A DNA stretch of 64,000 bases, taken from the NCBI GenBank assembly GCA_028288765.1, contig JAQGHQ010000090.1:1-64000 (forward strand). Direction: 5' to 3'. A model generated the notes under the pieces. That model searched no databases and had not been told where the DNA came from. It saw only the letters and a list, made by a program, of their open reading frames with translations. This document shows positions 31,747 through 35,170 of the stretch, one piece after another; within the stretch, counting starts at the first letter, position 1, and each line of letters begins with the position of its first letter. Made by a program: the position numbers and the translations under genes. This stretch comes from Gemmataceae bacterium. GTDB taxonomy: Bacteria > Planctomycetota > Planctomycetia > Gemmatales > Gemmataceae.

Positions 31747-33144
31747 ATGCCCGCCCATCCGGCCCCCTGCCCCGGCCCCGACCGCCGGGATGTGCTGCGT
31801 TTCGGTTCGGTCGCCCTGGCGTCTGCCGCCCTCGGCCCGATCGTCTCGTACCGGTCGAAGGGGCTCGCGGCCGAGGCCGCACGAACGTCGAACGACCCGG
31901 CTGTGATCTTCGTCTGGCTACCTGGCGGTCCGCCGCACCAGGACACCTTCGACATGAAGCCGGACGCCCCGGCCGAGTACCGCGGGGCATTCAAACCGAT
32001 CCGGACGAACGTCTCCGGGATCGACGTCTGTGAACACCTCCCTCACCTCGCCAAAGTCGCCGACAAGTTCTCGGTCATCCGGTCCATCGCCCACACGTTC
32101 GCCGACCACGGCGGCGGGCACAAGCGGTTCCTGACCGGCCGCGACCCGCTCCAGCCGGCCGGGTTCGTCAACGACACCCCGATGGTCGGGTCGATGGCCG
32201 CCGAGGCACTCAAGGGGAAGCACGCGGCCGTCCCGAACTACATCTGCGGCATGGACGGCGGGCGACAGGGGATCGACGTATTCAGCTTCGGGTCGGCGTA
32301 CCTCGGCCCGCAGACGCACCCGTTCATGATCGCCGGCGACCCGGCCGACGCGCGGTTCGAGATCCGGAACCTCTCGCCCGTGGCGGGGACCGAGGGGAAA
32401 TTGCCCGACCGGCTGGACCTCCTGCGGACGCTGGACCGGCCGCTCGCGGGCACCGACCCCGCCGGGACCGCGGCCGGGATGGACGTGATCCGCGGGCGGG
32501 CGGTGGAGCTCATCACCACCGGGACGGCCCGGGGCGCGTTCGACCTGTCGAAGGAATCGCCGAAGGTCCGCGACCGGTACGGAATGCACCGGTACGGGCA
32601 GCGGGCGCTGCTCGCCCGGCGACTGGTCGAGCACGGGGCGAGCTGGGTGACGATGGTGATGGAGAACGCGACCCCGCCGGGGGCCTCGCTCAAGGAGAAC
32701 CACACCTACAACTGGGACTCGCACGCGGTCAACTGCCACATCTTCGAGGACACGCGGTACAAGCTGGGGTTCCTGGACCAGGCCATCTCGGCGCTGATCG
32801 AGGACCTGTACGCCCGCGGGCTGGACCGGCGGGTGCTCCTGGTGGTGACCGGGGAGTTCGGGCGGACCCCGAAACTGGAGTACGCGAAGGACCGGCCGGG
32901 TCGTGACCACTGGCCGCAGGCGATGAGCATTCTGGTGAGCGGGGCGTGCAAGACCGGCGTCGTGGTCGGGAGCACGACGGCGCGGGCGGAAACACCCAAG
33001 GACCGGCCGATGACCCCGAACGACCTGTGGGCGACGGTGTTCAGGCACCTCGACATCGACTACAACCGCACGTCCTTCCTCGACGGCACCGGCCGCCCGA
33101 TGCCGATGCTCCCGTACGGCGAGGTGATCGGGGAGCTGGTGTGA
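31747..33144 (+). CDS. DUF1501 domain protein, Tat-exported (465 aa)
   Basis: The N-terminus carries a twin-arginine leader (DRRDVLRFGSVALASAALG). Typical DUF1501 features follow: VIFVWLPGGPPHQDTFDMKP, FSVIRSIAHTFADHGGGH and, near the end, VLLVVTGEFGRTPKLE with RDHWPQAMSILVSG. The family is related to the alkaline phosphatase/sulfatase fold. In planctomycetes DUF1501 genes usually pair with a DUF1549/DUF1553 cytochrome-type gene; here it is alone. ATG 31747 is chosen because the Tat leader follows; the frame reaches 25 codons further upstream. TAATCT at 31695-31700 is a possible -10 box. Its last 60 bases have been copied downstream, next to a REP element. Confidence 0.92.
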   Translation: MPAHPAPCPGPDRRDVLRFGSVALASAALGPIVSYRSKGLAAEAARTSNDPAVIFVWLPGGPPHQDTFDMKPDAPAEYRGAFKPIRTNVSGIDVCEHLPHLAKVADKFSVIRSIAHTFADHGGGHKRFLTGRDPLQPAGFVNDTPMVGSMAAEALKGKHAAVPNYICGMDGGRQGIDVFSFGSAYLGPQTHPFMIAGDPADARFEIRNLSPVAGTEGKLPDRLDLLRTLDRPLAGTDPAGTAAGMDVIRGRAVELITTGTARGAFDLSKESPKVRDRYGMHRYGQRALLARRLVEHGASWVTMVMENATPPGASLKENHTYNWDSHAVNCHIFEDTRYKLGFLDQAISALIEDLYARGLDRRVLLVVTGEFGRTPKLEYAKDRPGRDHWPQAMSILVSGACKTGVVVGSTTARAETPKDRPMTPNDLWATVFRHLDIDYNRTSFLDGTGRPMPMLPYGEVIGELV

Positions 33145-33151
33145 CCGTGTC

Positions 33152-33263
33152 TCTTGGCGGGGGCGTGAGCCCCCCGAGGAAGCACGCGACCCGCAGAATA
33201 CCTGTACGCAAGGGTGAGGGGGGAACTTCCTCGGGGGGCTCACGCCCCCGCTCGCCGGGGTGA
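33152..33263. repeat. REP pair (BIME-like) 1
   Basis: Two REP-type palindromes face each other: GGCGGGGGCGTGAGCCCCCC at 33156-33175 and the inverse CGGGGGGCTCACGCCCCCGC ending near 33252. The spacer contains AGAATACCTGTACGC, which recurs inverted in the second pair. It begins 8 bases after the DUF1501 stop. Confidence 0.88.
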
Positions 33264-33337
33264 TCGACCGTATCCTTCCTCGACGGTAGCGGCCGCCCGA
33301 TGCCGATGCACCCGCACGGCGAGGTGATCCATATCTC
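33264..33337 (+). repeat. Duplicated 3' end of the DUF1501 gene
   Basis: Bases 33273-33329 repeat 33073-33129 of the DUF1501 gene at an offset of exactly 200 bases, encoding SFLDGSGRPMPMHPHGEVI against SFLDGTGRPMPMLPYGEVI. The copy lies between two REP pairs and has no start codon of its own. Confidence 0.88.
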
Positions 33338-33491
33338 GTGGCGAGCGGGGGGCGTGAGCCCCCCGAGCAAGCTCATCATGACTGTAACGCGAGGAAAATC
33401 GAGCGAAGCTGACACCCTCGACTTCGCGTACAGGTATTCTCAGAGTTGCGCGATTCCTCGGGGGGCTCATGCCCCCCGCTCGCCGGGGTGA
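33338..33491. repeat. REP pair (BIME-like) 2
   Basis: Left palindrome GCGGGGGGCGTGAGCCCCCC at 33344-33363, right inverse palindrome at 33458-33485, with 90 bases between. The spacer carries GCGTACAGGTATTCT, the inverse of the spacer motif in pair 1, so the two elements are in opposite orientation. It ends 7 bases before the RAYT start codon. Confidence 0.88.
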
Positions 33492-33497
33492 CTGGTC

Positions 33498-34079
33498 GTG
33501 TCTCGATCCTGGTTGCTCACGTCGACCTTTTACGGAAACTGGCTCCCCGGCGACCCACGCGGGTTCGTCTCCCGGGTTCGGGACCAACGGCTCGAAGATG
33601 AAGATACCGTCGTGCGTTTCGAACACGACATTCCCGGGACGGCCTACGACGAAGATTTACCGGGGTTGTGGAGGGCCGCGGCCGGTCAGATGAAGGGCCC
33701 TCGGATCTTGATCGACCACGATCAGGCGCAAGTCTTGTTCGACCAGTTTCAGGAAACAGCGGTGCATCGGTCCTGGTCACTCCAGGCGGTGGCGGCAATG
33801 GAGAACCACGTCCATCTTGTGGTAACCGTCCCGGGCGATCCCGACCCCTCGGACATTCTCGGCGACTTCAAGGGGTACGGGAGCCGCGTGTTGAATCGGC
33901 GATGGGGCAAGCGACCTAACGGAACGTGGTGGACAGAGGGTGGCTCGAAGCGGAAGTTGCCTGATGAACAAGCTGTCGCTGGTGCGGTCGGCTATGTCCT
34001 TCGTCAGCGGGCTCCGTTGCTCGTCTGGGCTCATCCCGACGTGACGCCCGACGAGCGGGGGCGTGAGTTCCCCGAGTGA
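33498..34079 (+). CDS. REP-associated tyrosine transposase (RAYT, Y1/HUH family), 193 aa
   Basis: Single-strand DNA transposase of the IS200/IS605 superfamily that in known systems is linked to REP elements. The HUH motif is H104-V-H106 in ENHVHLVV. Candidate catalytic tyrosines are Y127 (FKGYGSRVLN) and Y166 (VGYVLRQR). Other family-like segments are STFYGNWLPGDPRGFV at the N-terminus and NGTWWTEGGSKR. The start is GTG 33498, just after REP pair 2. The last ten codons (PDERGREFPE) are encoded by a degenerate REP (GACGAGCGGGGGCGTGAG), so the repeat forms part of the protein end. REP palindromes flank the gene on both sides. Confidence 0.87.
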   Translation: MSRSWLLTSTFYGNWLPGDPRGFVSRVRDQRLEDEDTVVRFEHDIPGTAYDEDLPGLWRAAAGQMKGPRILIDHDQAQVLFDQFQETAVHRSWSLQAVAAMENHVHLVVTVPGDPDPSDILGDFKGYGSRVLNRRWGKRPNGTWWTEGGSKRKLPDEQAVAGAVGYVLRQRAPLLVWAHPDVTPDERGREFPE

Positions 34080-34080
34080 C

Positions 34081-34210
34081 CGAACGGAACGTGGCGGGCG
34101 GAGAATGGCTCGAAGCGAATTTCGCCCGACGAAGGGCTATCTCCGGTGCGATTGCTTACGTCCTTCGGCGACGAGCTGAGTTGCTCGTATGGGCTGATCA
34201 CATCATCAAG
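34081..34210 (+). pseudogene. Duplicated 3' tail of the RAYT gene
   Basis: Bases 34081-34210 are a diverged copy of the RAYT 3' end (about 33916-34047). GAACGGAACGTGGCGGGCGGAG aligns with TAACGGAACGTGGTGGACAGAG, and later CTTACGTCCTTCGGCGACGAGC with CTATGTCCTTCGTCAGCGGGC. The copy has indels that break the frame and has no start. It is followed by a REP palindrome in the same relative position as in the source. Confidence 0.8.
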
Positions 34211-34244
34211 CCCGGCGAGCGGGGGGCGTGAGCCCCCCGAGTGA
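34211..34244 (+). repeat. REP palindrome
   Basis: Full unit with core GCGGGGGGCGTGAGCCCCCC and flanks GGCGA and GAGTGA. It follows the RAYT tail remnant. Confidence 0.85.
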
Positions 34245-34296
34245 TACTTCGATTTAGGTGGAACACCGAGGTCAACTCAAGGGCTCACACCACGGT

Positions 34297-34326
34297 CACT
34301 CGGGGGGCTCACGCCCTCAGCTCGCC
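34297..34326 (-). repeat. REP palindrome, inverted
   Basis: CACTCGGGGGGCTCACGCCC followed by TCAGCTCGCC, inverse to the unit at 34211. One arm is degenerate. Confidence 0.82.
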
Positions 34327-34358
34327 AAGACGTCACCCGCCTGACCCTCGGATGTGCG

Positions 34359-34390
34359 TCACTCGGGGGGCTCACGCCTCCCGCTCGCCC
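34359..34390 (-). repeat. REP palindrome overlapping the scpA stop
   Basis: TCACTCGGGGGGCTCACGCC followed by TCCCGCTCGCC. Its inner half forms the last six codons and the stop of scpA (34372), so the element invades the gene end. Confidence 0.85.
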
Positions 34391-35094
34391 TCGACCGCGA
34401 TCAGCCAGATCTCGCCCTCCGGGTCGGGTTGTTCCAGCCCGATGCCGTGGTGCCGGATCAGCTCCAGGATCGCCAGGAAAATCCCGATCAGACGGGCCTT
34501 GAAGTAGGGCGGGGTGAACACCGCCCGGAACGCGACCCGCCCCTCGGCCCGCACCCGGTCCTTGATCTGCCCTTCATAGACGTGCTGGGGGGTGTCGTCG
34601 ACCGCGATCGTCGCCGGCTGGAGCGACTGGGTCTCCCGCATCAGCCTGGCGAACGCACTCACCAGGTCCCACAGCTCGACCGGCTTCACCACCGGACCGG
34701 CGGTCGCGGTCGGCTCCGGGAGTTCTTGCCGGGCGAGCCGGGAGCCTTGCCGCTCGGCCCGCTCCTCCAGCGCCACCGCGGCGTCCTTGAACTTGCGGTA
34801 CTCCAGGAGCTGTTTCACCAGCTCCCGCCGCGGGTCGGCAGTCTCTTCCTCCGCCACCGCGGCCCCGGCCGGGAGCAGCATCCGGCTCTTAATCTCCATC
34901 AGCGTGGCGGCCATCACGACGAAGTCGCCGGCCAGTTCCACGTCGAGCTCCCGCACCACGTGCAGGTACTCGAGGAACTGGTCGGTGATCCGCGCGATCG
35001 GGATGTCGAGGACGTCCACCTCGTCCCGCTTCACGAGGTAGAGAAGCAGATCGAGCGGGCCGTGGAACGCATCGAGCACGACGGTGTAGGACAT
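34372..35094 (-). CDS. scpA: Segregation and condensation protein A
   Basis: Kleisin subunit of the bacterial SMC-ScpAB condensin, 240 aa. The N-terminal segment DAFHGPLDLLLYLVKRDEVDVLDIPIARITDQFLEYL is nearly canonical (positions 7-43) and contacts the SMC neck. FVVMAATLMEIKSRMLLP is the second family signature. The winged-helix C-terminus that contacts the SMC head is present (FKARLIGIFLAILELIRHH). ATG 35094 is chosen to match the family start; a frame extending 20 codons upstream is less likely. The final residues EGEREA derive from a REP element. It lies 76 bases downstream of glgC on the same strand. scpB and smc are not in the window. Confidence 0.93.
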   Translation of the reverse strand: MSYTVVLDAFHGPLDLLLYLVKRDEVDVLDIPIARITDQFLEYLHVVRELDVELAGDFVVMAATLMEIKSRMLLPAGAAVAEEETADPRRELVKQLLEYRKFKDAAVALEERAERQGSRLARQELPEPTATAGPVVKPVELWDLVSAFARLMRETQSLQPATIAVDDTPQHVYEGQIKDRVRAEGRVAFRAVFTPPYFKARLIGIFLAILELIRHHGIGLEQPDPEGEIWLIAVEGEREA

Positions 35095-35170
35095 CGAGTT
35101 ACCGAGGGGGCCCCGGGGCCCCCACTGGATACCGAACCCGGCCGGCACCGGCAACCCGAACCCCGCGGGC

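Follow-up and report, generated by a model that had tools for sequence, protein, structure and literature searches.

The window analysed here is a 64,000-nucleotide stretch of contig C391 (65.9 kb), which carries a RAYT gene and belongs to the 10.06-Mb, 615-contig genome of a Gemmataceae bacterium. At positions 33158-34389, eight REP hairpins, two of them degenerate, surround a gene for a RAYT-like HUH/Y1 transposase (Table 1). A first-pass annotation had described at least seven REP units around a single HUH transposase, in facing pairs before the gene and in mixed orientation after it. This description holds for the eight units and the one full gene copy now found: two facing pairs lie 5' of RAYT and the remaining hairpins 3' of its start, in the order + - + - RAYT + + - -.

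Some of these hairpins also encode protein ends. The last codons and the stop of scpA are supplied by a REP hairpin, as are the last codons of RAYT, whose stop codon (34077-34079) follows directly behind REP5 in the conserved GAGTGA edge. The end of scpA in a congener (genome G005) likewise carries a degenerate REP (locus L011, around 1419-1441).

Table 1. Features of the REP array in the window and copies of a REPIN-bearing element elsewhere
Feature	Position	Strand	Remark
DUF1501 gene end, 57-nt tandem duplicate	33073-33129 and 33273-33329		upstream flank of each REP pair
REP1	33158-33178	+	foot degenerate
REP2	33230-33256	-	pairs with REP1
REP3	33340-33367	+	perfect GGCGAG-CGGGGGGC-GTGA-GCCCCCCG-AG
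REP4	33457-33484	-	pairs with REP3
RAYT-like HUH/Y1 transposase gene, 193 aa	33498-34079	+
REP5	34050-34076	+	degenerate; inside RAYT 3' end, codes RAYT C-terminus
Decayed tandem duplicate of RAYT 3' end with its REP	34075-34239	+
REP6	34214-34241	+	perfect
REP7	34299-34326	-
REP8	34362-34389	-	overlaps scpA 3' end
scpA	34372-35154	-	last residues and stop coded by REP8
MITE-like element with REPIN body	G000 C130:33243-33464, C240:2959-3175, C390:10669-10893		also L061, L065, L078

Local duplication accounts for part of the growth of the array. A tandem repeat covers the final 165 bp of RAYT, including the REP (33910-34074 and 34075-34239), with 74-78% identity between the halves in two ungapped pieces; the decayed copy retains 49% amino acid identity and has one in-frame TGA. 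A tandem duplication also precedes RAYT: its unit spans ~200 bp, carries a REP pair together with the end of the DUF1501 gene, and is visible as the 57-nt repeat of Table 1 (93%) and as a 30-nt repeat (83%; 33245-33274 and 33473-33502). Both duplications had been overlooked in the first-pass annotation. Moreover, the interiors of the two upstream REP pairs are mutually inverted, with 62-nt arms (82%). These arms explain why the 15-nt spacer motif AGAATACCTGTACGC, of which 0.01 copies are expected in the window, occurs in opposite orientations, at 33195-33209 (+) and 33426-33440 (-). The inverted motif had been taken to suggest that the pair moves as one unit. The motif is present on opposite strands as stated, but it reflects local duplication. 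Its only exact matches genome-wide are the two window sites, which rules out AGAATACCTGTACGC as a genome-wide REPIN element. The REP pair as a unit is backed instead by facing pairs at fixed spacing across the genome.

The RAYT-like protein matches the Pfam family Y1_Tnp (1.7e-8) and scores below cutoff against the NCBIfam models for RAYT (40 bits, cutoff 80) and IS200 (31.7, cutoff 55). Its HUH motif is NHVH (residues 103-106), and its catalytic tyrosine is predicted to be Y166, which forms a Y---Q motif with Q170. H106, Y166 and Q170 are invariant in 64 homologues, most of which carry NH[VIF]H and W[TAS]; the window protein has WT at the latter position. All 64 have Y---Q or Y----Q, with both lengths represented among close homologues, and YxxxNP is found in none of them. 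A PDB profile search with the window protein leads to the IS200 transposases 2f4f and 2ec2, and structural alignment of its AlphaFold2 model (pLDDT 86.9) gives Z about 13-14 with IS200/IS605 TnpA and Z 11.9 with 4er8, the RAYT of E. coli. Profile, alignment and model agree on an HUH motif, a single catalytic tyrosine and a Y1 fold, as expected of a RAYT in a REPtron. The earlier assignment to RAYT is thus retained in part: the protein is a RAYT-like Y1 enzyme with a REP family, but its Y---Q motif and sub-cutoff score set it apart from canonical class 2. The genome contains one full copy, with the decayed 3' piece directly behind it. RAYT keeps an atypical codon usage (GC3 0.72; 0.92 for each neighbour) even though the congener has the gene at the same locus.

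The REP core GGGGGGCGTGAGCCCCCC occurs, with at most two mismatches, at 228 sites in the genome, compared with 9 for a reversed-pattern control. The consensus of 104 copies is GGCGAG-CGGGGGGC-GTGA-GCCCCCCG-AGT. Each base of the foot GGCGAG is present in 83-95% of copies, and a C is conserved 3 nt 5' of it. Close neighbouring REPs face inward in 50 of 61 pairs, and 38 of these 50 are spaced 32-35 nt apart (REPINs). A conserved REPIN spacer sequence was ruled out, as spacer length is conserved while the sequences are mostly unrelated. Folded as DNA, a single REP has a z-score of about -4 and an entire REPIN one of -11.9; the two strands differ in modelled hairpin stability by only 0.4-0.5 kcal/mol.

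Genomic context was assessed at 67 loci, mostly picked for an exact core from among the 228 copies. At these loci, a home-made codon-usage gene finder, which does not call RAYT itself, places 58 of the 89 testable REPs in non-coding DNA, against a non-coding background of 14%, and 31 within predicted genes. The dispersed copies, their position mostly outside genes and the shared 5' foot are positive outcomes of the genome tests that the first-pass annotation had proposed. REPINs at six loci (L044, L057, L067, L094, L101 and L103) lie inside long predicted genes with in-frame read-through, which could reflect over-extension by the gene finder.

In the congener G005, RAYT resides at the same locus, beside scpA and glgC. 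The gene is single-copy and holds a shared place, as in REPtrons, whose gene is not mobile. An inversion of RAYT relative to scpA in G005 was ruled out, because the locus is merely recorded on the opposite strand and synteny is collinear. Inspection of gaps reveals an intact REP at none of six orthologous G005 sites, and pairwise alignment reveals none at a seventh. Two of the seven sites carry REP-like remnants, so REPs may have been lost as well as gained.

A search of 149 related genomes gave RAYT homologues in 68. At 30 RAYT loci, 93 hairpins of the form nnGAG-stem-GTNA were detected, compared with 0.2 in shuffled sequences. We also examined 80 named homologue loci, nearly all planctomycete, and found 193 hairpins at 48 of them, a set that overlaps the previous 93. 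Patterns with altered loops or feet have 0-19 matches at the named loci, except for GCG, which picks up the same sites with an offset. The foot is GCGA(G) in 138 of the 193 hairpins and CCGA or CTGA in 19. Whereas stems are lineage-specific, the 5' foot (usually GCGAG) and the GTNA tetraloop are constant, and hairpin distance correlates with protein distance (Mantel r 0.54; 0 of 5000 permutations). The commonest arrangement is REP+ ... REP- RAYT REP+ ... REP-, or REPIN-RAYT-REPIN, with exceptions.

REP abundance follows RAYT presence across the 149 genomes, both for genomes with at least 5 copies (odds ratio about 10, p 3.5e-8) and in mean pattern matches (23.7 with RAYT, 2.6 without; Mann-Whitney p 2.6e-10), in each case uncorrected for relatedness. 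Three genomes carry 57 (G022), 26 (G033) and 83 (G078) REP copies without a RAYT detected at an E threshold of 1e-10; gene loss, assembly gaps or orphan REPs are possible reasons. Conversely, 22 genomes with RAYT lack the searched REP pattern, and their stems may differ from it.

These data point strongly to a REPtron, in which a class 3 TnpA-Y1 (RAYT-like) gene, present once and inherited vertically, serves a REP/REPIN family. The enzyme would bind single-stranded REP hairpins exposed in replication, with the foot GCGAG, a GC-rich stem of about 8 bp and a C(GTNA)G loop. The foot presumably acts as a guide, and cleavage by Tyr166 would fall a few bases on its 5' side, at C|T or C|C. Facing REP pairs would then be moved or copied to new, mostly intergenic sites, while the gene stays put. 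E. coli-type RAYTs cleave at C|T, and in one system there is evidence that the GTAG bases guide the choice of cleavage site (PMC8266576). Of 97 REPs, 56 have CC or CT as the upstream dinucleotide, which is compatible with the C|T cleavage of TnpAREP (PMC8266576). We infer that RAYT is the cause of REP spread.

However, part of the REP copy number is probably owed to a separate, MITE-like element with inverted ends GTGCTTTGTCGAAA. The genome contains 63 such TIR-like ends, compared with 1 in the control, and they form pairs 135-225 bp apart; among the 63, neither pairs 1-2 kb apart nor an autonomous partner was seen. One identical REPIN spacer occurs at six places with common MITE flanks and dissimilar DNA outside them. 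REPINs within this element indicate that some REPs probably spread by the MITE route. On a broader version of this explanation, REPs would travel chiefly as MITE cargo, moved by another transposase, and RAYT would be incidental. We consider this unlikely, since GTGCTTTGTCGAAA-like ends lie at one or both sides of ~18 of 67 REP loci and are absent from ~45, and since cargo status leaves the phylum-wide linkage and co-divergence of REPs and RAYT unexplained.

The Y---Q motif is as in class 1, and IS200/IS605 TnpA is the best match of the protein both by profile and by fold. These traits would also suit an ordinary insertion sequence of that type, bounded on the left and the right by REPs and mobile together with its gene. 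This is very unlikely, because one gene copy contrasts with hundreds of hairpins, near-identical gene copies are absent from the genome, the congener has the gene at the same locus beside scpA and the NCBIfam IS200 score is below its cutoff. Least probable is a role of the hairpins as bidirectional terminators or mRNA stabilisers that are maintained by selection and are not mobile DNA. Intergenic bias, overlap with the ends of scpA and RAYT and strong folding are what such elements would display, but the hairpins lack a T-run, have conserved unpaired features off the stem (the foot and the GTNA loop), are not intact at orthologous congener sites and have stems that co-diverge with RAYT. A secondary regulatory role of REPs besides mobility is possible.

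Linkage of RAYTs and REPs in Planctomycetes has already been published (PMC3733652, 2013; PMC6006769, 2018, as "class 3"). The array in the window is therefore not the first extension of this association beyond proteobacteria; the first-pass annotation had noted that a planctomycete case would extend it. Class 3 TnpAY1 enzymes were reported from Planctomycetes with atypical hairpins, and their consensus comprises an NHVH-type HUH motif, W[TA], Y----Q and the hairpin foot CnGA (Quentin et al. 2018, PMC6006769). Judged by NHVH and WT, the window protein fits class 3, with differences in the Y motif and the foot. Shared traits are the planctomycete host, NH[VIF]H, W[TA], Y-(3/4)-Q, a length of about 178-193 residues, several atypical hairpins around the gene and a high hairpin copy number. 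The foot, by contrast, is mostly GCGAG, with CCGAG or CTGAG in a minority of relatives, and the Y---Q of the window protein is one residue shorter than the consensus.

Class 2 TnpAREP/RAYT systems (E. coli, Pseudomonas, Stenotrophomonas) are similar in their single-copy Y1 gene flanked by REPs, their REPINs, their intergenic bias and the final AG of the foot, as in GTAG. They differ in that the present system lacks a GTAG foot and YxxxNP and has a constant GTNA tetraloop; the foot GT[AG]G, typical of those class 2 subclasses that have canonical REPs (class 2 includes Bertels groups 1-5), differs from the GGCGAG foot of the copies in this genome. IS200/IS605 TnpA proteins (IS608, ISDra2) share the HUH/Y1 fold, Y---Q and a hairpin with a 5' guide-like foot, but the gene studied here is not multi-copy and apparently not a mobile unit. 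The GTAG/CGTC palindromes and TIRtrons (PMC3733652), for which Planctomycetes are already listed, also have tyrosine transposase genes surrounded by REPs or TIRs; their tag differs from ours.

The kind of system is thus already known, and its signature and architecture are more detailed here than in the literature found. The sparsely described class 3 gains a phylum-wide anatomy across dozens of species, in which the recognition signature is fixed, REPIN-RAYT-REPIN is the conserved layout and the hairpin diverges along with the enzyme. These three properties make the choice of REPs by RAYT testable outside proteobacteria. They also bear on whether the REPIN lifestyle evolved more than once. 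Tentatively, class 3 might represent a separate domestication of an IS200-type enzyme in Planctomycetota, with a REPIN lifestyle independent of class 2 and its own hairpin code. Such a code would consist of a near-constant GCGAG foot and a C(GTNA)G loop, with the stem free to vary.

DUF1501 genes lie near RAYT in 12 of the loci examined. DUF1501 is a large family in Planctomycetota.
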